In this document: in pieces, positions 5,324 through 18,099 of the stretch | Position numbering within the stretch: position 1 is the first letter of the stretch | Layout: each line of letters begins with the position of its first letter | Virus record (IMG/VR): IMGVR_UViG_3300049595_001652 | Span: 1 to 36,158 of that record | DNA: 36,158 nucleotides | Strand: one strand, 5' to 3' | DNA from: a virus | The notes under the pieces: generated by a model | Told to the model about the DNA's origin: nothing | The model's input: the letters and a program-made list of their open reading frames with translations, nothing else | Databases searched by the model: none | Program-made: the position numbers and the translations under genes

Positions 5324-5863
5324 ATGAAAAATTGGAAATTAACATCAGAAAAAAAAGTTAACATTAGTGGAGTTACGCTGTTTAGAATCGAATTAACCAT
5401 TACATGTAAATGGGGAAATGCTGGGGAAAAGGGCGGATGGATTGAAAAAGAAGACAATCTATCCGGAAATGCTTGGGTGTACGGAAATGCTGAGGTGTCC
5501 GGAAATGCTAGGGTGTACGGAGATGCTAGGGTGTACGGAAATGCTGAGGTGTACGGAAATGCTGAGGTGTACGGAAATGCTTGGGTGTACGGAAATGCTT
5601 GGGTGTCCGGAGATGCTAGGGTGTACGGAGATGCTAGGGTGTACGGAGATGCTTGGAACTCATCTCCTTTACAAATACAAGGCTCTAAACACTTTGTTAA
5701 CGTGTGCGCTAAGGGTTTTTTACAAATAGGCTGCAAAAGCTTCTCTTTAAGTTATTGGAAGGATAATTTACGTCAGATTGGTATTGATAACTCGTATTCT
5801 GAAAATCAAATAAAGGAATACGGATTGTATATTGACTTAGCGATTGAATTAGAAAAAACTTAA
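5324..5863 (+). CDS. Hexapeptide-repeat beta-helix protein (179 aa)
   Basis: Residues 48-113 are eleven near-identical hexapeptides of the form GNAxVY or GDAxVY/S, the pattern of left-handed parallel beta-helix proteins often found in phages. The N-terminus (GGWIEKEDNLSGNAW) and the C-terminal domain (KEYGLYIDLAIE) match the layout of this phage family as I know it. Its function is not established; a surface, binding or host-takeover role is possible. It is preceded by the structured leader and its own promoter-like box. The repeat number probably varies by slippage. Confidence 0.75.
   Translation: MKNWKLTSEKKVNISGVTLFRIELTITCKWGNAGEKGGWIEKEDNLSGNAWVYGNAEVSGNARVYGDARVYGNAEVYGNAEVYGNAWVYGNAWVSGDARVYGDARVYGDAWNSSPLQIQGSKHFVNVCAKGFLQIGCKSFSLSYWKDNLRQIGIDNSYSENQIKEYGLYIDLAIELEKT
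5465..5662 (+). repeat. Eleven 18-bp coding tandem repeats
   Basis: Units follow GGAAATGCTnnGGTGTAC with small changes (GGAGATGCT, GTGTCC). Each unit encodes one hexapeptide (GNAWVY and variants), so gain or loss of units keeps the frame. The nucleotide identity is higher than the protein pattern needs, which suggests recent expansion or ongoing homogenisation. Confidence 0.85.
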
Positions 5864-6537: not shown

Positions 6538-7913
6538 ACAATAACATAACCGAAATCGAAGAGATTGTTTTAGGTGCAATTATACTAGAAGGTAATAATG
6601 CCCTAGACGTTGTTAAAAATGATTTAAACTATAAATGCTTCACCCACGAACCAAACAGGCTTGTATTCGCCTCCTTAATCGATTTAGATAAAGAAAATAA
6701 AAGTATCGACCTTATTACAATAGTTCAGAAGTTAAGGGAAAAGAAACAACTTGATTTAGTAGGGGGTGCTTTTTACATCAGTTCGTTAACTCAAAGGGTT
6801 GCAAGTTCGGCTAACATCTACAGTCACGCCCGTTATTTGATTGAAAACTACTTAAAGACTTCAATTAGTAATAAGTTAATGAATGCCTTTCATTCAATGA
6901 GTGAGCCCAACTCAGACCCTTTAGGCGTACAAGCCAAGTTAATAACCGACTTGCAAGACTTAGTTAACGAAGTGAGTACCTCTAATACATTTGAAACAAT
7001 TGAAAGTTTAGGGGATAAATACCTGACCGACCTCAGCGACTTAATGGACGGTAAGGGTGAGGTAGCTATTAGTACTGGCTTTACTGAAATGGATAAATAT
7101 GGCATGTATGGTAAATCGGATTTTATTTTAATTGCCGGTCGACCAGGTATGGGTAAGACGGCTTACATCATTAGTTCTATTCGTAACATTTGTTTTAGGG
7201 ATGGAATTAAAACCGGAATGTTTAGTTTAGAAATGAGTTCAATGCAAATACTTAACAGGATTGTTAGCAGCGAAAATCAAATTAACAGCGAGGCATTAAG
7301 GAAAGGAACTATTAATCGATTGGAGTTTAGTAATGTTAATGGGACCTTGTTGCGGTTAAAAGATAAACCGTTTTGGATTGATTCAACTAGCTCCATTGAT
7401 ATTGATGTGCTATGTGCAAGGGCAAAACAAATGAAACGTAATTTTGGGATTCAAATTTTGTTTGTTGATTACATTGGCTTGATTAACACGGGTAAGTATG
7501 GTAATGACAAAACAAACCAAACAGGCTACATAAGCAACCGATTAAAGGGATTAGCGAAGGATTTGAATATACCGATTATTTGTTTAAGTCAATTAAGTCG
7601 AGATATTGAGAAACGACCTATAAACGAACGTTTGCCACGTTTAAGTGATTTAAGGAATAGTGGTGACTTGGAACAGGATGCAGACAGCATCTACTTCTTG
7701 TTTCGCCCTATGTATTACGGAGTGAATGAATGGGAGGTTAACGGGCAAAACATTGATGTGACGAATAAGTGTTTTGTTATCAATGCAAAAAATAGACACG
7801 TTGGAATAGGTACGGAGTTGTTAGGCTTTGTTGGTCAATATACGGAGTTCTACTCACTAGTTGATGAACAGAATAAGATGCAAAGTTTAGAACCTAACAA
7901 AGATTTTTTTTAA
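6534..7913 (+). CDS. dnaB: Replicative DNA helicase, DnaB family
   Basis: Ring helicase that unwinds the phage fork. The N-terminal domain (about 1-110) has the DnaB start IEEIVLGAIILE and an Fxxxxhxxxf segment. The RecA-like core has Walker A GRPGMGKT at 202-209, Walker B ILFVDY at 308-313, the LSQLSRDIEKR sensor region and the late RNSGDLEQDAD segment. The 459-residue length is normal. The start overlaps the initiator stop (ATGA), indicating coupling. No phage DNA polymerase or primase gene is visible, so host enzymes probably complete the fork. Confidence 0.93.
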   Translation: MNNNITEIEEIVLGAIILEGNNALDVVKNDLNYKCFTHEPNRLVFASLIDLDKENKSIDLITIVQKLREKKQLDLVGGAFYISSLTQRVASSANIYSHARYLIENYLKTSISNKLMNAFHSMSEPNSDPLGVQAKLITDLQDLVNEVSTSNTFETIESLGDKYLTDLSDLMDGKGEVAISTGFTEMDKYGMYGKSDFILIAGRPGMGKTAYIISSIRNICFRDGIKTGMFSLEMSSMQILNRIVSSENQINSEALRKGTINRLEFSNVNGTLLRLKDKPFWIDSTSSIDIDVLCARAKQMKRNFGIQILFVDYIGLINTGKYGNDKTNQTGYISNRLKGLAKDLNIPIICLSQLSRDIEKRPINERLPRLSDLRNSGDLEQDADSIYFLFRPMYYGVNEWEVNGQNIDVTNKCFVINAKNRHVGIGTELLGFVGQYTEFYSLVDEQNKMQSLEPNKDFF

Positions 7914-7924
7914 AATTATTCTTG

Positions 7925-8005
7925 TTGATAATCAAACAGTTAGCAAAAATAAGTGTTAAATGTTTTAAATTTATTTTGAAAATTAAAAAAGAGTTTGTAA
8001 TTTTA
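7925..8005 (+). promoter_or_regulatory. Early promoter cassette with operator-like element, copy 2
   Basis: TTGATAATCAAACAGTTA (7925-7942) contains the perfect palindrome TTGATAATCAA. It is followed by TTTG at 7975-7978, a 19-bp spacer and TAATTTTA at 7998-8005, close to the Bacteroidota pattern TTTG-N19-TAnnTTTG. The same arrangement, with identical distances of 32 bp to the TTTG and 55 bp to the -7 box, occurs at 11859-11939. The downstream start is 19 bases from the -7 box. Confidence 0.7.
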
Positions 8006-8024
8006 CACCATCAAAACAAATAAA

Positions 8025-8775: not shown

Positions 8776-9021
8776 ATGACACAAAAACAAAAAATAGTTA
8801 GTTTGTTCTTGCAAGGCAAGTCACTAACAACGTACACGGCAGCGGTAAGTCGCATAACAACAAAGCTACCCACTCGGATTGGTGAGATTGAAAAAGAGAT
8901 TGGCGTTCGTTTTGAGCGTAAAAAAATTGAAAGTAAGAAAGTAGCCACACACTTTAGTTACTCAATTGGTAAGGCTTCAAGGATTAAGTTGAATAAGTAT
9001 TTAAAAAAACAAAATGACTGA
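8776..9021 (+). CDS. Putative winged-helix DNA-binding protein (81 aa)
   Basis: MTQKQKIVSLFLQGKSLT followed by TTKLPTRIGEIEKEIGVRFERKK has the layout of a helix-turn-helix or winged helix (a 'kxxil.ll..G.slT...A' opening and an 'R..dle..g' recognition region) seen in many small phage proteins. It is basic (81 residues), overlaps the next gene by 8 bases, and is the penultimate phage gene before the first cassette array. DNA binding is inferred. Confidence 0.6.
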   Translation: MTQKQKIVSLFLQGKSLTTYTAAVSRITTKLPTRIGEIEKEIGVRFERKKIESKKVATHFSYSIGKASRIKLNKYLKKQND

Positions 9022-9274
9022 ATTAAGATTAATAGAATTAGCCCGGAAACATAACCTAATCAGTACCACAATAGCAAATAACATGAATAGTTATGATAAC
9101 AATGTTTTGTTTGCTTTAACCGAAATATCCAAACAAATCAAAAGTGAGTTACTTGCCGATAAATGGCATGTTGAAAGTAAATCAAAGTCTAACTTATTGG
9201 AGCGGATAAGTAAATTAGAAATGACTCACCCAAGCGAGGCAATGGAGTTAACTCATGAATTTTTGAAGTGCTAA
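9014..9274 (+). CDS. Hypothetical protein ending in the first cassette site (86 aa)
   Basis: A helical, charged protein with no recognised domain. Its stop codon TAA (9272-9274) is the TAA of the conserved TAAC that opens cassette site S1. This shows the array is inserted exactly at the gene end, or that the last codons were supplied by the insertion. It is the last native gene of this early run. Confidence 0.6.
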   Translation: MTELRLIELARKHNLISTTIANNMNSYDNNVLFALTEISKQIKSELLADKWHVESKSKSNLLERISKLEMTHPSEAMELTHEFLKC

Positions 9275-9342
9275 CGGTTTGCAGCTTGGCGCAGTTTGCG
9301 TTGGCTTGTGGGAAGGTAATTGCGCTAAGGTGCTGTTATGTT
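9268..9342 (+). repeat. attC-like site S1
   Basis: Left end GTGCTAAC, 5-base spacer GGTTT, arm GCAGCTTGGCGCA (9281-9293); right arm TGCGCTAAGGTGC (9321-9333), 1-base spacer T, right end GTTATGTT (9335-9342). Eleven of 13 arm positions pair. The asymmetric 5-versus-1 spacer recurs in other sites. The left end has no partner upstream, as expected for the first site. Confidence 0.7.
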
Positions 9343-9395
9343 GGTGTGTTAGCATGTGCGTAGGGCAGTAATTTATATTTAAAATAAAAAAAGCG

Positions 9396-9902
9396 ATGGC
9401 AAAAGTAATAACATTTAGTAGAACATTTCCAGCATATCATCCGAAATCTGGGCAGCCTACTTATTTTGTGGAGAAATTCTACAACTCATTATTTTCAAGA
9501 AATAACCTTATGGACTATCCAAAAGGACTTGAAATAAATGAGAGCATTTTAGAAATGAAAAACCACACAATAAGGGCTGGTGAAAGGTGGAAAAAAGGCG
9601 AATATTTTAGCCCAAGAGTTTGGAGTGGTAAGCCTTATAATACACCGCAAATAATATTATCAAAAGATACTTTAATAACCGATGTATATGATTTTGAAAT
9701 TAAACAGGCTTATATGGAACTGCCATTAGATTACGATACTGATGTAATAATTAACCATAGATTTTTTCATACTGATAGCGATATTATGAAAGTAGTTGCT
9801 AAAAATGATGGTTTGACATTAGCGGAATTATTACAATGGTTTAAATATCCAAAGCCGTTTAAAGGACAAATTATATGCTGGAACAAAAATGCGCAATACT
9901 AA
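9396..9902 (+). CDS. ASCH/PUA-like hypothetical protein, cassette 1 cargo (168 aa)
   Basis: The cargo of cassette 9335-9951. MAKVITFSRTFPAYHPKSGQ, then NHTIRAGERWKKGEYFSPRVWSG (about residues 55-77) resembles an ASCH-like RNA-binding fold family common in Bacteroidota, where 'K.HTIR.g.RwK.Gd' is the typical opening. The role in phage or host is unknown. It has its own A-rich leader 54 bases after the proposed crossover and no overlap with neighbours. Confidence 0.65.
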   Translation: MAKVITFSRTFPAYHPKSGQPTYFVEKFYNSLFSRNNLMDYPKGLEINESILEMKNHTIRAGERWKKGEYFSPRVWSGKPYNTPQIILSKDTLITDVYDFEIKQAYMELPLDYDTDVIINHRFFHTDSDIMKVVAKNDGLTLAELLQWFKYPKPFKGQIICWNKNAQY

Positions 9903-9943
9903 ACATAGGTGCGGTGGCTTTTTATTTTAAATATAAATTATTG

Positions 9944-10002
9944 AACATAACGGTTTGCGTATAAAAAATCGTTTTAATGTTTTTTATACGCTGTTATAAC
10001 CA
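9944..10002 (+). repeat. attC-like site S2
   Basis: Left end AACATAAC, spacer GGTTT, arm GCGTATAAAAAA (9957-9968), right arm TTTTTTATACGC (9980-9991), spacer T, right end GTTATAACCA (9993-10002). The two 12-base arms are perfectly complementary around an 11-base loop. At 59 bp it is the shortest site in the window. Confidence 0.75.
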
Positions 10003-10030
10003 GTGCGGATAAATTAGATAAAACTTAAAT

Positions 10031-10390
10031 ATGGAAAATAAAATTTTTGCCGTTAAAAAACAAGGAAAGTTTTGGGCGGCTATTGATTGCGGAGAAACAA
10101 AAGTAGGTGGCATGACTTATGGAACATTTTGGAGTAACCACTTTAAAAAAGATAGTAGAACCTACCGTTGGTATGCAGAACTATTTATGCCACCTGCTGA
10201 TTTAGTAGAATGGCAAGAGATAAAAACACTTGATAAAATGGTTACAGTTGTAGCAACAGAAGGTAACGCTTTTGAAGGTTGGGAAGATAAAGAAGATGGG
10301 TGTTTTTATCCACTACAAAACTTTGCCAAATTGCTCGGCAAAAATTTGACTATTGAAGAAGTAAAAAGTTTGATTGATGCTCAAAAGTAG
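10031..10390 (+). CDS. Hypothetical protein, cassette 2 cargo (119 aa)
   Basis: The only gene of cassette 9993-10403. It has a beta-rich N-terminal half with many aromatic residues and glycines and a helical C-terminus (TIEEVKSLIDAQK). No signal peptide or known motif. Start and stop lie wholly between the two cassette ends, so the unit is self-contained apart from a promoter. Confidence 0.65.
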   Translation: MENKIFAVKKQGKFWAAIDCGETKVGGMTYGTFWSNHFKKDSRTYRWYAELFMPPADLVEWQEIKTLDKMVTVVATEGNAFEGWEDKEDGCFYPLQNFAKLLGKNLTIEEVKSLIDAQK

Positions 10391-10393
10391 CAT

Positions 10394-10529
10394 TGGTTAT
10401 AACGTTTTGCGTGTATAAGAAGTGGCGGAATTAGACCCCAAAACTTTCAGCAAACGCAGAACTTAATTTGAAAAACAGAACTTTAAATTAACCGAGAACC
10501 CGCCATTTTTTATACACGCTGTTAGTGGC
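10394..10529 (+). repeat. attC-like site S3
   Basis: Left end TGGTTATAAC, spacer GTTTT, 20-base arm at 10409-10428 beginning GCGTGTATAA, right arm at 10500-10519 ending TTATACACGC, spacer T, right end GTTAGTGGC (10521-10529). Eighteen of 20 arm positions are exact complements and the other two can be G-U pairs. The central 71 bases show no further gene. Confidence 0.75.
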
Positions 10530-10554
10530 TGGGCTTTTCACAAATCAAATTAAA

Positions 10555-10725
10555 ATGAAAGAAACTGAAAAACAATTAGAGTATATCAGATTTATTGAGG
10601 AAGAAACTGGTGTAATTTACAAAGGACAAACAAAACAAGAAGCATCAAAATACATATCAGAAAATAAAGATAAAGTACCTGCTTCTGGCTCAATAAGTAT
10701 GTGGGCTTTGGTTAATGGTTATTAG
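10555..10725 (+). CDS. DUF3072-like small protein, cassette 3 cargo (56 aa)
   Basis: I take the ATG at 10555 (MKETEKQLEYIRFIEEETG); an in-frame GTG at 10525 would start inside the site. 'KQLEYIRFIEEETG...TKQEASKYISE' resembles the short DUF3072-type helical proteins ('T..Q..yL..L..e.g....t..eAs..I..l'). Function unknown. It is the only ORF in cassette 10521-10738. Confidence 0.6.
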   Translation: MKETEKQLEYIRFIEEETGVIYKGQTKQEASKYISENKDKVPASGSISMWALVNGY

Positions 10726-10729
10726 CCTT

Positions 10730-10827
10730 GCCACTAACGGTTTCGGGCTTGGCGAAGTGCCGCTACTCGAAACTTAAATTTTAGCACTAACTATCCTGCG
10801 GCATTTTGCCAAACCCGTGTTATGGGA
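10730..10827 (+). repeat. attC-like site S4
   Basis: Left end GCCACTAAC, spacer GGTTTC, 19-base arm at 10745-10763 beginning GGGCTTGGCGAAG, right arm at 10798-10816 ending TTTTGCCAAACCC, spacer GT, right end GTTATGGGA (10819-10827). Sixteen of 19 arm positions are exact complements. The core GCTTGGCGAAG is also present in S10, so these two sites are related. Confidence 0.75.
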
Positions 10828-10868
10828 TAGTTCAATTTTTTTGTGGGTTGGCGTAAACAAATTTCAAA

Positions 10869-11108
10869 ATGGAAAAAGAAGAAGGTTACAAAGTAAGAAG
10901 CCATATGTTCAAAGGAACAAGTGAATATGATGGCAAGATTTTAGGTTACACCTATGAAATCACATTTAACAAATCGCTTGAACACACAGGCAGATTTACT
11001 GGTATTGAAGATGGCTTAAACGCTTATTGCAAAAAAGAACGTAGAACCGATATTACAGACAACTTCAAGCGTTTGTGGTATTCATTGGTGCGGTGGGTAA
11101 AAAATTGA
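10869..11108 (+). CDS. Hypothetical protein, cassette 4 cargo (79 aa)
   Basis: A small protein with a beta-rich first half (GKILGYTYEITFN) and a basic, aromatic C-terminus (FKRLWYSLVRWVKN). Not recognised. It is the only gene of cassette 10819-11120, with an A-rich leader after the site and a stop 4 bases before the closing end TCCCATAAC. Confidence 0.6.
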   Translation: MEKEEGYKVRSHMFKGTSEYDGKILGYTYEITFNKSLEHTGRFTGIEDGLNAYCKKERRTDITDNFKRLWYSLVRWVKN

Positions 11109-11111
11109 ATT

Positions 11112-11249
11112 TCCCATAACGAATAAAAATAAACGTAGTACATAAATTGAAACGCAAATGAATAAATACTTGACATACTTTGATAAAATGCACCTCTCTG
11201 ACGATAGTACACAATATGTATTACGTTTATTTGGTGTTACCTGCTGGGC
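11112..11249 (+). repeat. attC-like site S5, containing a start codon
   Basis: Left end TCCCATAAC (11112-11120), arm at 11127-11149 beginning AAATAAACGTAGTAC, right arm at 11212-11232 ending GTATTACGTTTATTT, spacer GGT, right end GTTACCTGCTGGGC (11236-11249). The arms pair over about 20 bases with a 2-base bulge. The left sequence TAACGAAT departs from the TAACGGTTT seen elsewhere. The central part encodes the start of the next gene. Confidence 0.65.
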
Positions 11250-11406
11250 TTCTATCCACTCAAAAAAATGCAGTTGGTTTAGAATATTTGGCAGAGGATT
11301 AATGTGGAAACATATTGATAATGGATTGAGGTTTTCAGAACGAAACGGATATAAAAAATATTTGCGAATAGGTAAATGGATTGTAGAATACTTGCCTTGC
11401 AGGTAA
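11158..11406 (+). CDS. Hypothetical protein read across a cassette boundary, cassette 5 (82 aa)
   Basis: The ATG lies in the centre of site S5; codons 1-26 are site sequence and cassette 5 begins at V27 (GTT at 11236). The protein has cysteines in VTCWASIH and SKKCSW and a basic, aromatic second half. No family recognised. The stop TAA is part of the closing GGTAAC. It may be a hybrid made when the cassette inserted, or the real gene may start internally. Confidence 0.5.
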   Translation: MNKYLTYFDKMHLSDDSTQYVLRLFGVTCWASIHSKKCSWFRIFGRGLMWKHIDNGLRFSERNGYKKYLRIGKWIVEYLPCR

Positions 11407-11422
11407 CAACTCATACACGCTA
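11394..11422 (+). repeat. Terminal half site of array 1
   Basis: GCCTTGCAGGTAAC closes cassette 5 (12 of 14 complementary to its start), followed by AACTCATACACGCTA. The 20 bases 11403-11422 are identical to 18060-18079, the end of array 2. A weak right arm may exist at 11474-11489 in the next gene (13 of 16 possible pairs), but the GTTA end is missing. Confidence 0.6.
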
Positions 11423-11463
11423 CTATTGAAAGCCAACAACTTACAATTAAAATGTACAATAAA

Positions 11464-11853
11464 ATGAACAAAACAATACTATTGTGTACACTATTGTGTA
11501 CATCGTGTTCGGTTTGGAATAAGATTCCAGACGATACAAAGCACTTTGCTGCCGGGGCAGGGGTTAACGTTGTAACTACAGCTGTTATTTTGAAGTTAAC
11601 AAAGAAGAAAGGTTTAAGCCTTGCAACAGGCTTACTAACTGGTGTTGCTATTGGTTACGCAAAGGAGCGAGTTTGGGATAAACAATGGAATAGAGGCGTG
11701 TATAACATCAATGACTTTGCAATTACTGCTTGGGGGTCGCTTGTTGCAACGCCTGCCATATTTTGCGTTCGGGATTCAAAAGCTAAAAGAATGTATTATA
11801 GATTAGATTCAGCTACATTTAACCGTTTATTTGTTGATTCTTTGAAAAAATAA
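11464..11853 (+). CDS. Putative lipoprotein (129 aa)
   Basis: I prefer the ATG at 11464 over 11452 because it gives a clean signal peptide: MNKTILLCTLLCTSC, with lipobox LCTSC and lipidated C15. The mature part has a glycine- and alanine-rich hydrophobic stretch (about 45-70) and a second near 95-110. Proteins of this layout are found in Bacteroidota phages, probably envelope-associated, perhaps in lysis or superinfection exclusion; the role is unproven. A 12-bp tandem duplication (11478-11501) encodes the repeated LLCT of the signal peptide. Confidence 0.6.
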   Translation: MNKTILLCTLLCTSCSVWNKIPDDTKHFAAGAGVNVVTTAVILKLTKKKGLSLATGLLTGVAIGYAKERVWDKQWNRGVYNINDFAITAWGSLVATPAIFCVRDSKAKRMYYRLDSATFNRLFVDSLKK

Positions 11854-11858
11854 TTGTA

Positions 11859-11939
11859 TTGATAATCAAACAGTTACGTTATTTTAACAAAAAATCTTTT
11901 TAAAATGTTTTGATATTTGAAAAATAGGTTGTAATTTTA
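11859..11939 (+). promoter_or_regulatory. Early promoter cassette with operator-like element, copy 3
   Basis: TTGATAATCAAACAGTTA (11859-11876) is identical to the element at 7925. It is followed by TTTG at 11909-11912, a 19-bp spacer and TAATTTTA at 11932-11939, with TTGTAATTTTACAC shared exactly with copy 2. The ATG at 11944 is only 5 bases after the -7 box, so the transcript should be leaderless or nearly so. Confidence 0.7.
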
Positions 11940-11943
11940 CACT

Positions 11944-12246
11944 ATGAAAACAAATAAAGAATACTTAACATCAAATAGACAGGTAATAATTAACGAATTA
12001 TCTAAGGCGTTTAAATTTGAATCTATTGAATTAAAAGACTTAATGACTTCATTTGTTCAATATTTGAATGATAATAATTACGATTTATCGGAAATGTTTA
12101 TTGACTCTGTAGTGAACGAAATGTATTATGAGTATCAAAACGGCAGTTTTATAATTAACGCTTGTTCTACAAATAACATAGCTATGTATAATCACTCTGA
12201 GTTATTAAGACAAAGAGACTTTAACACAAATAAAAATCACAATTAA
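11944..12246 (+). CDS. Hypothetical protein (100 aa)
   Basis: First gene behind the third early promoter, with a start only 5 bases from the -7 box. It is an acidic, mainly helical protein (MTSFVQYLNDNNYDLSEMF). No known domain. It opens the recombination and DNA-metabolism run that leads to the SSB-like protein and NinG. Confidence 0.6.
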   Translation: MKTNKEYLTSNRQVIINELSKAFKFESIELKDLMTSFVQYLNDNNYDLSEMFIDSVVNEMYYEYQNGSFIINACSTNNIAMYNHSELLRQRDFNTNKNHN

Positions 12247-15808: not shown

Positions 15809-15943
15809 TAACGGTTTGCATCTATATTTAGTTGCGGATTTACAAGCACAAATTATCAAATTAGCAATAACTTAAATAGAAAGAAAAATGTCAAATAAAC
15901 CACAGAAACCGCAATTGAATATAGCTGTTGTTAGCGGTAGTTT
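15809..15943 (+). repeat. attC-like site S6, containing a start codon
   Basis: TAAC (15809-15812), spacer GGTTT, arm at 15818-15837 (GCATCTATATTTAGTTGCGG), right arm at 15909-15927 (CCGCAATTGAATATAGCTG), spacer TT, right end GTTAGCGGTAGTTT (15930-15943). Sixteen of 19 arm positions are exact complements. The right arm is inside the following ORF. The upstream flank finds no convincing partner, as for S1. Confidence 0.65.
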
Positions 15944-16094
15944 TTATTGGGTTCGTCCGTTCCATAAAGACGAGTTTGAACCTGCTAAATGTAAAGAACT
16001 ATACGGCACAGATAAGCTATATTTCTTTTTCACAAATGGAAGTCGAATGGAAGTTGAATGCGCTTGGGAAGTCGAGAAGTTAAATTACCGCTAA
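15888..16094 (+). CDS. Hypothetical protein read across a cassette boundary, cassette 6 (68 aa)
   Basis: The ATG lies in the centre of S6; codons 1-14 are site sequence and the cassette starts at V15. From there SGSFYWVRPFHKDEFEPAKCKELYGTD... is a compact aromatic domain with no known family. The stop TAA is part of the closing CCGCTAAC. The N-terminal 14 residues may be an adventitious extension. Confidence 0.5.
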   Translation: MSNKPQKPQLNIAVVSGSFYWVRPFHKDEFEPAKCKELYGTDKLYFFFTNGSRMEVECAWEVEKLNYR

Positions 16095-16224
16095 CGGCTA
16101 CGCATATAAGCAGTAGCGGATTGTGAAGAACAAATTTTAAATTAACAACTAAAATAAAATAGAAATGACAAAATTAAATTTTACCACAAAAAACGCTATT
16201 GCTTTATATGCGATGTTAGCGGTT
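16082..16224 (+). repeat. attC-like site S7, containing a start codon
   Basis: Left end AAATTACCGCTAAC, arm at 16102-16118 (GCATATAAGCAGTAGCG), right arm at 16194-16211 (CGCTATTGCTTTATATGC), spacer GAT, right end GTTAGCGGTT (16215-16224). Sixteen of 17 positions pair after one bulged base. The right arm is coding for the lipoprotein signal peptide of the next gene. Confidence 0.7.
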
Positions 16225-16452
16225 GTTTTTTCTTCGTGTGATGGAGATACAGAATCAAAAAGAGTAGTAACAGAAGCAAGAGTTACTCAAAATTATGAAG
16301 AGATTGGCTATCCAGTCAAATTGCACTACATAGAAAGAAGTGGAATGAAGTATATGATAGCTTCTGGACAATATGGTGAAGCTGGAGTGTCAATTTGTAA
16401 TTTGACATTAGACAGTTTGCAAGTGGAGTTTTATAAGCGGTCGCTAAAATAA
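16165..16452 (+). CDS. Small lipoprotein whose signal peptide spans a cassette boundary, cassette 7 (95 aa)
   Basis: MTKLNFTTK then a hydrophobic stretch and lipobox FSSC with C25 make a plausible lipoprotein signal. Codons 1-17 come from site S7, ending in ATG whose G is the G of the proposed G^TT crossover; the cassette contributes from L18. The mature part (about 70 residues) is a small soluble domain of unknown family. The stop is followed directly by CCGCTAAC. Without the upstream site the protein would lose most of its signal peptide. Confidence 0.55.
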   Translation: MTKLNFTTKNAIALYAMLAVVFSSCDGDTESKRVVTEARVTQNYEEIGYPVKLHYIERSGMKYMIASGQYGEAGVSICNLTLDSLQVEFYKRSLK

Positions 16453-16541
16453 CCGCTAACGTTTTGCAGCTAATGGCTGGCGGCAATAGGCGTTTAGTAT
16501 GTAGCCGCTTGACATTAGGTGCTGTTAGCGGTTAGTTGCAC
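16451..16541 (+). repeat. attC-like site S8
   Basis: Left end AACCGCTAAC, spacer GTTTT, arm at 16466-16484 (GCAGCTAATGGCTGGCGGC), right arm at 16504-16522 (GCCGCTTGACATTAGGTGC), spacer T, right end GTTAGCGGTTAGTTGCAC (16524-16541). Fifteen of 19 positions are exact complements. No start codon is used from inside this site. Confidence 0.75.
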
Positions 16542-16573
16542 AGGGAAGGATTAATAAACTAATATTTAAATAT

Positions 16574-16750
16574 ATGAAAGTAGAAACAACAAAAGAACTA
16601 AAACTCAAATTGAAGGGTAAAAACATTGAACACTTTAAATCTGCTCTTACCAAAATTTCAGATGAAAACAAAAAAGTAGGTTTTAAATCAAACATTCTAA
16701 ATGAAAATGAAATTAAAGTGTTAAATGATATTAAGGATAAAATTGAGTAA
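16574..16750 (+). CDS. Small basic protein, cassette 8 cargo (58 aa)
   Basis: A short lysine-rich, helical protein (MKVETTKELKLKLKGKNIEH...), start 33 bases after the cassette boundary behind an AT-rich leader, stop at 16750 before the closing end. No family recognised. It is the only reading frame in cassette 16524-16779 and occupies most of it. Confidence 0.55.
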   Translation: MKVETTKELKLKLKGKNIEHFKSALTKISDENKKVGFKSNILNENEIKVLNDIKDKIE

Positions 16751-16762
16751 CCCGTGCGGTGG

Positions 16763-16914
16763 GTGCAATTACCGCTAACGTTACGAGGCTTTGCGTTCGT
16801 TGGCGTTTAGAATTACTGAACTTTAAAATAAGCACAAATGAAAATTAGAAAACAAAAACTTGAAAATAAGCACTTAACCGCCAATGACGCAAAACCTGTG
16901 TTAGCAGTAGTGCC
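16763..16914 (+). repeat. attC-like site S9, containing a start codon
   Basis: Left end GTGCAATTACCGCTAAC, arm at 16786-16805 (AGGCTTTGCGTTCGTTGGCG), right arm at 16879-16897 (CGCCAATGACGCAAAACCT), spacer GT, right end GTTAGCAGTAGTGCC (16900-16914). The arms pair at 17 of 19 positions with one bulge. The central part contains the ATG of the next ORF. Confidence 0.7.
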
Positions 16915-16993
16915 AAAGTGTAGCCATTTTTGGAAGATGATAACTAAAAATTATTACAAATGTGGTTGGTGTGATGAAAGGCATTACTGCTAA
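16838..16993 (+). CDS. Mini zinc-binding-like protein read across a cassette boundary, cassette 9 (51 aa)
   Basis: Codons 1-21 are encoded by site S9; L22 (TTA) is the first codon of the cassette. The cassette part is only about 30 codons and reads VVPKCSHFWKMITKN then YKCGWCDERHYC, with C28, H30, C42, C45 and C51 as possible metal ligands. The stop TAA is the TAA of the closing CTGCTAAC. With a cassette of only 95 bp, this is among the smallest plausible cargoes. Confidence 0.5.
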   Translation: MKIRKQKLENKHLTANDAKPVLAVVPKCSHFWKMITKNYYKCGWCDERHYC

Positions 16994-17126
16994 CGTATGG
17001 TGCTTGGCGAAGGCTGGGTATTTGAAAAACTAAACTTGAAATTATGCACAGAATCTCAATAGAATTACAAAACTTGATTGAACCACAGAAGCCCAGCTTT
17101 TGCCAAACACGTGTTACAGGCAGTAC
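16980..17126 (+). repeat. attC-like site S10, containing a start codon
   Basis: Left end GGCATTACTGCTAAC, arm at 17000-17018 (GTGCTTGGCGAAGGCTGGG), right arm at 17092-17110 (CCCAGCTTTTGCCAAACAC), spacer GT, right end GTTACAGGCAGTAC (17113-17126). Sixteen of 19 positions are exact complements and the rest can be G-U pairs. The methyltransferase ATG is in the centre. Confidence 0.7.
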
Positions 17127-18051
17127 GGGTTTAAACGTACTATCCCTTTTCGATGGTATGTCTTGTGGTCAATTAGCGTTACAAAAGGCAGGAATAAAAG
17201 TTAATCAATACTTTGCAAGTGAAATAAAACCACACGCAATAAAAGTAACTCAACACAATTTCCCTAATACAATACAATTAGGTAGCGTATTAGATGTAAA
17301 AGCTATTGATTTGCCTAAAATTGATTTATTGATAGGTGGAAGCCCTTGTCAAGATTTTAGTTCAGCTAATAAAGAAAAATTAGGATTGCAAGGCGAAAAA
17401 TCAGGATTGTTTTATGAGTATTTAAGACTTTTAAAAGAATGTGAGCCGAAATACTTTTTACTTGAAAATGTGGCAATGGATGATTATAGCTATGCAGCAA
17501 TAAGTGAAATGCTTGGAACTTATCCAACAAACATAAATAGCGAACTTGTATCAGGACAATTAAGACAAAGAAGCTATTGGACGAATATAGGTCCAGAAAG
17601 CTTTGATTTATTTGGTAATAGATACTCAATGATACCACAACCTAGAAACAAAAAAATAAAGTTTCAAGATTTATTAGAGAATGGATATACAGATAGATTA
17701 AAAGCAAGATGCTTACTTGAAAGCGAAAGTAGAAATCCAGGAAGTACATTTTCATCATTAAGAAGATATATGATACAAGGATTTATAAATGTAATTTTCA
17801 AGGATAAAGAAACTTACGAAAAGTATTCTAAAATGACCGAAGATGAAATGAAAGCAAATTTTGTTGATGGCGATATTAGAAAACTAAACCAAACAGAAAT
17901 GGAACGATTACAAACAGTACCCAATGGATATACAAGTATTCTAAAAAGAAATGAAGCAGCTTGTTTATTGGGTGATGGTTGGACAGTTGATACTATTGCA
18001 CATATTTTTTCATTCATAGAAGTAGAATGTTCAAATTATGCACAGTCGTAG
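17044..18051 (+). CDS. C5 cytosine DNA methyltransferase, cassette 10 cargo
   Basis: Transfers a methyl group from SAM to C5 of cytosine, probably protecting phage DNA from host restriction. Motif I VLSLFDGMSCGQ is at 32-43, motif IV GGSPCQ with catalytic C102 at 98-103, motif VI ENV at 141-143, the QLRQR segment at 172-176, and late motifs (RKLNQTEMERLQTVPNGY, LGDGW) near the end. The 335-residue length is normal. No nuclease partner gene is seen. Codons 1-23 come from site S10 and the cassette starts at V24, just before motif I. It is the largest cargo in the window. Confidence 0.88.
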   Translation: MHRISIELQNLIEPQKPSFCQTRVTGSTGLNVLSLFDGMSCGQLALQKAGIKVNQYFASEIKPHAIKVTQHNFPNTIQLGSVLDVKAIDLPKIDLLIGGSPCQDFSSANKEKLGLQGEKSGLFYEYLRLLKECEPKYFLLENVAMDDYSYAAISEMLGTYPTNINSELVSGQLRQRSYWTNIGPESFDLFGNRYSMIPQPRNKKIKFQDLLENGYTDRLKARCLLESESRNPGSTFSSLRRYMIQGFINVIFKDKETYEKYSKMTEDEMKANFVDGDIRKLNQTEMERLQTVPNGYTSILKRNEAACLLGDGWTVDTIAHIFSFIEVECSNYAQS

Positions 18052-18079
18052 TATTGCCTGTAACAACTCATACACGCTA
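18051..18079 (+). repeat. Terminal half site of array 2
   Basis: GTATTGCCTGTAAC (18051-18064) closes cassette 10 and is complementary to its start at 13 of 14 positions. It runs into AACTCATACACGCTA. Bases 18060-18079 equal 11403-11422, the end of array 1. No matching right arm was found downstream. Confidence 0.6.
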
Positions 18080-18099
18080 TAATTGAATATCAATAAGTT

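Follow-up and report, generated by a model that had tools for sequence, protein, structure and literature searches.

Two arrays of putatively mobile gene cassettes with integron-like sites in a Bacteroidota phage

Single-gene units bounded by TAAC/GTTA stem-loops

The window analysed here is the whole of a 36 kb phage record in IMG/VR (IMGVR_UViG_3300049595_001652, 36,158 nucleotides), which derives from a Bacteroidota phage and contains two arrays of small gene cassettes. Array 1 consists of five cassettes (9272–11407) located between a phage gene at 9014–9274 and a gene at 11452–11853, and array 2 of five further cassettes (15809–18075), including one for a C5 DNA methyltransferase whose ORF matches PF00145 with E=8.7e-35. 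Each one-gene unit of array 1 opens with a stem-loop that starts with TAAC and ends with GTTA (Table 1). Using a scanner for this TAAC–stem-loop–GTTA pattern, with a strong site defined as one on the + strand with a score of at least 14, we found exactly ten strong sites in the whole window, five in each array, compared to a mean of 0.0 in Markov shuffles (n=10). A search of the window against Rfam gave no match.

Table 1. Cassettes and array ends in the window, with stem-loop and gene coordinates.
Feature	Position	Strand	Details
Left edge of array 1	9014–9274	+	Phage gene; TAA stop inside first TAAC
Cassette c1	9275–9950	+	Stem-loop 9272–9338; gene 9396–9902, 168 aa, phrog_8581-like
Cassette c2	9951–10402	+	Stem-loop 9948–9996; gene 10031–10390, 119 aa; 10-nt flank pairing (GTTATAACCA)
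Cassette c3	10403–10737	+	Stem-loop 10400–10524; gene 10555–10725; 9-nt flank pairing, more pairing beyond
Cassette c4	10738–11119	+	Stem-loop 10735–10822; gene 10869–11108, 79 aa; unit also in contig L133
Cassette c5	11120–11406	+	Stem-loop 11117–11239; ORF 11158–11406 begins within stem-loop; 9-nt flank pairing
attI-like site, 3' end of array 1	11404–11430	-	TAACAACTCATACACGCTACTATTGAA
Cassette d1, array 2	15812–16094	+	Stem-loop 15809–15933; ORF 15888–16094; from scanner and flank pairing
Cassette d2, array 2	16095–16459	+	Stem-loop 16092–16218; ORF 16165–16452; from scanner and flank pairing
Cassette d3, array 2	16460–16778	+	Stem-loop 16457–16527; ORF 16574–16750; from scanner and flank pairing
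Cassette d4, array 2	16779–16993	+	Stem-loop 16776–16903; ORF 16838–16993; from scanner and flank pairing
Cassette d5, array 2	16994–18063	+	Stem-loop 16991–17116; C5 cytosine DNA methyltransferase ORF 17044–18051; from scanner and flank pairing
attI-like site, 3' end of array 2	18061–18087	-	TAACAACTCATACACGCTATAATTGAA; same sequence as array 1 end

In all ten units, the sequence right after GTTA is complementary to the unit's own sequence right before the next TAAC. In the 8 nt outside the core, own flanks matched at 63 of 80 positions, whereas shuffling flank partners among units gave a mean of 33/80 and a maximum of 56 in 100,000 trials (P about 1e-5); for 108 units in other viral contigs, the own-flank match was 4.97/8 versus 2.75/8. 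Exact pairing in array 1, GTTA included, extends over 8, 10, 9, 9, and 9 nt in units 1–5, respectively. The simplest reading of this complementarity is that the two ends of each unit were once joined in a circle. An original prediction, made from the letters of the window, had proposed five consecutive units with TAAC/GTTA stem-loops and complementary flanks in array 1; the units and stem-loops lie where it placed them, and the complementarity holds in all ten units, but the start flank of unit 1 is GTTATGTT at 9335. This unit has a second GTTA at 9348, and its exact 8-nt match is followed by an unpaired stretch.

Cassette ORFs from the window and other loci (n=121, ten from the window) include nine that match N6/N4 and four that match C5 DNA methylases, and most of the 121 have no Pfam family. 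It is a reasonable guess that part of this cargo serves escape from host restriction. Five window ORFs (15888–16094, 16165–16452, 16838–16993, 17044–18051, and 11158–11406) begin in their own stem-loop and run through GTTA. Because the family match of the methyltransferase begins only past GTTA, ~23 of its N-terminal residues derive from the recombination site. Some cassette genes share a short motif (~GTGCGGTGG) close to their 3' ends (9907–9917, 11086–11096, and 16753–16762), which is also present in L028 and other phages.

Cassette turnover and position of the breakpoints

We compared array 1 with its counterparts in four phages (L002, L019, L020, and L023) that are about 97–99% identical to the window in shared regions. 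The window carries c1–c5, L019 and L020 carry c1 and x6, and L002 carries x1–x4, c1, and x6; the L023 array reads x1–x4 and c1, and the contig ends within c1. All four phages match the left edge identically up to TAACGGTTTGC and then carry other cassettes. The c1 protein is 92–100% identical among these phages and has other neighbours on both sides, and c2 is missing from L002, L019, and L020. A scan of our genome collection with the c1 protein found no relative, so that c1 is not common on chromosomes in that collection at that sensitivity. In a ~90% relative of the window (contig JADBXZ010000137.1, loci L266/L267), both flanks of each array are kept and the contents of both arrays are replaced. 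Cassette c4 is also found in L133, an otherwise unrelated contig, with 3 mismatches in 387 nt (99.2% identity).

The edges of these differences locate the exchange. The likeness between c4 and L133 begins at TAAC and ends just past TAACG, and thus the stem-loop belongs to the gene that follows it. We rejected the classical reading, in which a gene is followed by its attC site and the break falls at the right-hand G^TT, as the stem-loop stays with the downstream gene in L002, L019, and L020. Opening of the circles at the right-hand G^TT, as originally predicted, is therefore not what the junctions indicate: breaks fall at TAA^CG, and the stem-loop travels with the downstream gene. Breakpoints resolve to TAACG, and within it the exchange point is probably, by analogy with integrons, TAA^C on the + strand, equivalent to G^TTA on the opposite one. 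The broader expectations of that prediction were borne out: junctions differ among related phages (L002, L019, L020, L023, and the ~90% relative), and single-gene cassettes with attC-like sites are gained, lost, and shared whole. The window thus very probably holds two mobile cassette arrays, built and shuffled by integron-like site-specific recombination. Outside the arrays, L020 carries ~2.8 kb of extra genes (L020:3405–6176) between positions corresponding to window 4801 and 5157, in which we noticed no attC-like edges.

Folding, array ends, and recombinases

We folded each unit's own flanks joined as in the circular form. The predicted product is a hairpin with an outer stem of about 10–16 bp, TAAC/GTTA included, a one-sided 4-nt bulge (KTTT), and an inner stem. 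The strand with TAACG folded better than its complement for all 96 viral and all 15 bacterial units, with a median ddG of about -6 kcal/mol. This difference probably stems from two G.T pairs, whose counterparts on the opposite strand are A.C. The outer wobble, 7 nt outside GTTA, is present in 91 of 111 units and is not selected by the scanner. As the G.T wobbles favour folding of the TAACG strand, that strand is the one most likely to be bound and cut. Strand choice in canonical attC sites depends on cues that include extrahelical bases. In canonical integrons, one strand of the folded attC is recombined (PMC2727003).

A strict site pattern occurs in 29 stretches, mostly from Bacteroidota, in 257 Gb of bacterial and archaeal sequence, and in more than 119 stretches of viral contigs among the matches listed. 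Polaribacter phage P12002L was considered as a further array of this site type and set aside, since the scanner found one site in its 48.7 kb genome. Sites in one array nearly always share orientation. The isolated Flavobacterium phage hattifnatt9-1 also carries an array. In two Bacteroidota genomes (L218 and L211), a tyrosine recombinase gene is followed by an attI site and then by cassettes whose sites are of the same type, and recombinase-linked cassettes of the same design lie on a Chryseobacterium plasmid (L268); gene direction in all three is classical, gene then attC. Relative to this order, 105 of 110 units at viral loci are inverted and one is classical, and bacterial loci have 10 classical and 7 inverted units, the inverted set including at least one contig related to this phage. 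The Chryseobacterium plasmid array also contains a group II intron reverse transcriptase (L268:18738–20054), a feature also known from canonical integron arrays.

Both arrays also have attI-like sites at their 3' ends, which the original prediction overlooked. In roughly 50 viral arrays, a related sequence (~TAACTACTNGCTANACGCAACT) takes the place of a stem-loop after the last TAAC. A gene for a 277-aa tyrosine recombinase begins ~70 bp beyond this site in about 20 phage contigs; in one such case (L091, also ~70 bp from attI), near-identical copies of the recombinase locus join four different last cassettes at the same TAAC. An equivalent site lies ~70–105 bp past the stop codon of host recombinases in ~11 of 30 loci examined. 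An ungapped attI matrix, trained only on recombinase-adjacent sites, ranked 50 other array ends above other TAACs with an AUC (area under the curve) of 0.85; weak assignments of the END motif were kept in the statistics. Both window arrays end in TAACAACTCATACACGCTA, which is present in relatives too. At the end of array 1, the sequence to the right of TAAC is constant and the left neighbour differs in relatives; the end of array 2 is conserved in the ~90% relative (L267), with another cassette to its left. From their position, constancy, and likeness to intermediate variants, the window array ends are likely to be attI sites.

No recombinase is encoded in the window or in its ~90% relative, as the original prediction had also found, and a search of the window and ten related viral records with TIGR02249, the IntI model, gave no match. 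The same site type adjoins tyrosine recombinases elsewhere, both in Bacteroidota integrons and in phage contigs, which supports that prediction. The host-type (about 380 aa) and phage (277 aa) recombinases align over the whole catalytic domain and score best with NCBIfam NF040815. Their TIGR02249 scores are 153–227 bits compared to a curated cut-off of 265, and the match is in two pieces (profile positions 3–178 and 238–315), with ~40 residues missing. The gap falls where IntI has its specific insertion, which separates the K motif from HxxR. TpnF (L269:10019–12040, plasmid pHH1107), a shortened protein from the same recombinase family, lies beside the tetracycline-resistance gene tet(X3), and a hairpin ending in GTTATG, possibly a relic of this cassette system, lies between them. 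We considered tet(X3) as a cassette of the same system and rejected it, as no intact TAAC/GTTA pair flanks the gene. As a lead only, the position of TpnF beside tet(X3) raises the possibility that the system bears on the spread of resistance.

In the mechanism that we propose, each cassette would move as a circle that carries a single gene with a single attC-like site. The two flanks of a circular unit would pair as single-stranded DNA to give the long stem, asymmetric 4-nt bulge, and second stem, and the better-folded TAACG strand would be bound and cut at TAA^C. New cassettes would be inserted at the double-stranded attI-like site that closes each array on its 3' side, and cassettes could leave by attC x attC exchange. 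Because the phage genes are inverted relative to attC, they would be read with the upstream operon. Adjacency and co-occurrence suggest that the recombinases described above act on these sites and, as the window encodes none, exchange would have to happen in trans, with a related tyrosine recombinase supplied either by the host or by a co-infecting phage whose own attI adjoins such a gene. Filling of the arrays by a host enzyme, as originally predicted, is plausible, and a helper phage with its own integrase is the alternative. We consider it possible, though rather unlikely, that the enzyme comes from a helper phage with the 277-aa integrase and not from the host chromosome. This phage integrase family adjoins attI and inverted arrays of the same design, but when 47 records, almost all with arrays, were searched with PF00589, only 8 had a tyrosine recombinase. 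Host-type recombinases (E below 1e-60), by comparison, occur in 71 of 198 Bacteroidota genomes sampled, not all next to attC sites: only some have sites within the short flanks examined.

Alternative explanations and relation to known systems

Several points weigh against integron-like recombination of these arrays. Recombination and circles are deduced from sequence. The inner G.T wobble, beside the core, is partly selected by the scanner itself, in contrast to the outer one. Being one base shorter, the attI-like ends of the window get poor scores (-12 to -13) on the ungapped attI matrix. The recombinases are without the insertion that has been described as essential for integron function, though it is not fully conserved (PMC8138268). 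Finally, L155:11916–12405 carries a 76% homologue of c2 on a c1-like stem-loop, which suggests that stem and gene were re-paired at least once and that breaks have occasionally occurred at the GTTA side.

The arrays could be passive baggage, that is, a phage-borne cluster of attC sites lacking an integrase (CALIN) made up of ordinary cassettes from host integrons. Phage CALINs have been published, including one from a Bacteroidota phage (PMC9892861), and host integrons with the same site type exist. However, phage cassettes are nearly all inverted and host cassettes classical, so the phage arrays were not simply copied from those of hosts; phages about 97–99% identical differ in array contents, which indicates active arrays; and attI-like ends exist. 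We regard this explanation as improbable. Still less probable is swapping by homologous recombination between conserved stem-loops during co-infection, with no site-specific recombinase. Although phages recombine freely and the stem-loops have short consensus ends (TAACGKTTTGC) in common, breaks are exact where only about 4–5 nt are common, at the attI end and the c4 edges. Homologous recombination also predicts neither own-flank complementarity nor strand-biased folding, and a recombinase gene adjoins the same sites in about 20 phage contigs. Movement of the units as single-stranded hairpin elements by a Y1 transposase (IS200/IS605 or REP-associated) would fit folded single-strand ends and one-gene units, but is hardly credible, as target and ends are TAAC/GTTA cores common to attI beside tyrosine recombinases and no Y1 transposase is among the proteins annotated here, where no dedicated search for one was made.

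Integron-like recombination thus remains our preferred reading, and the system works in an integron-like manner. As in functional integrons, whole cassettes are gained, lost, and shared, with breaks at the core site. Under a strict attC definition (imperfect inverted repeats, RYYYAAC/GTTRRRY ends, and a folded strand recombined at AA^C), the sites have the TAAC/GTTA core, flank pairing, and strand-biased folding, and their asymmetric bulge and long outer stem are unlike the canonical site. A strict integron has attI at the array end, as is seen here, with window ends that are one base shorter and score low on the matrix. The recombinases of the system are IntI-like but, because they have no IntI-specific insertion and score below the cut-off, it is not an integron in the strict sense. 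By the usual description of a CALIN (at least two attC sites and no integrase), the window qualifies, with ten sites by our own site definition rather than that of IntegronFinder.

Integrase-less attC clusters in phages are already known (PMC9892861). Those of Qi et al. 2023 (PMC9892861), P12002L included, have methylase cargo and attC sites usable by IntI1, and they resemble the window in having attC-like sites, small cassettes, no integrase, methyltransferase cargo, and a Bacteroidota phage among their carriers. The present system differs in its attI-like array ends, inverted polarity, other site type, phage-encoded integrases, and array turnover. With IntI integrons (class 1, Vibrio, and Treponema; TIGR02249) it shares single-gene cassettes, attI beside the integrase, and a folded site that would be recombined on one strand at a G^TT/AA^C core; in Bacteroidota hosts, transcription of the integrase gene runs in the direction of attI and the cassettes, as it does in Treponema (PMC3607928). 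In contrast to IntI integrons, recombinases here lack the IntI-specific insertion and fall below the cut-off, phage cassettes are inverted, and attC differs in shape, with a longer outer stem and a 4-nt bulge on one side. Single sites per cassette, and no dif-like 11-6-11 layout noticed here (no formal test was made), set the arrays apart from XerC/XerD dif modules. Those modules on plasmids, and the folded attP of CTX phage, use a host tyrosine recombinase in trans and a folded hairpin, which we note as a lead only.

Work on integrons has so far regarded them chiefly as a system of bacteria, with Proteobacteria at its centre, and the only complete integron that the IntegronFinder 2.0 survey lists for Bacteroidetes proper is that of Salinibacter ruber (PMC9024848). 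In the open-access literature searched, excluding subscription journals and preprints, we found no inverted phage cassettes, no phage attI with compact integrases, and no account of this Bacteroidota recombinase type as an integron integrase. New here are the inverted polarity, phage attI-like sites, and phage-encoded integrases, as well as the divergent type of both recombinase and site in Bacteroidota and the probable encoding of strand choice by G.T wobbles. We give roughly even chances to a broader proposal, that Bacteroidota and their phages have a second kind of integron, in which an Xer-like recombinase without the IntI-specific domain recognises a folded site of another shape, and G.T wobbles set strand choice. 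Phages would be its main users. They would carry a pool of inverted cassettes as well as docking sites of the attI type, some also having their own integrase, and counter-defence genes would be swapped between unrelated phages. If this is true, a common integron-like system of Bacteroidota has been missed by current models, and it serves phages as a docking station for exchanging accessory genes, of which many code for DNA methyltransferases. The proposal bears on how a recombinase with no IntI insertion can handle folded attC sites, on the way in which strand choice is encoded, and on why single genes are common to unrelated phages.

Two further repeats lie outside the arrays. A 123-bp intergenic repeat at 7902–8024 and 11836–11958 (~74% identity), also present in relatives, is possibly a promoter or regulatory element. 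An ORF at 5324–5863 contains ~12 tandem repeats of the type VYGNAEVYGDAR, where relatives align in several offsets.

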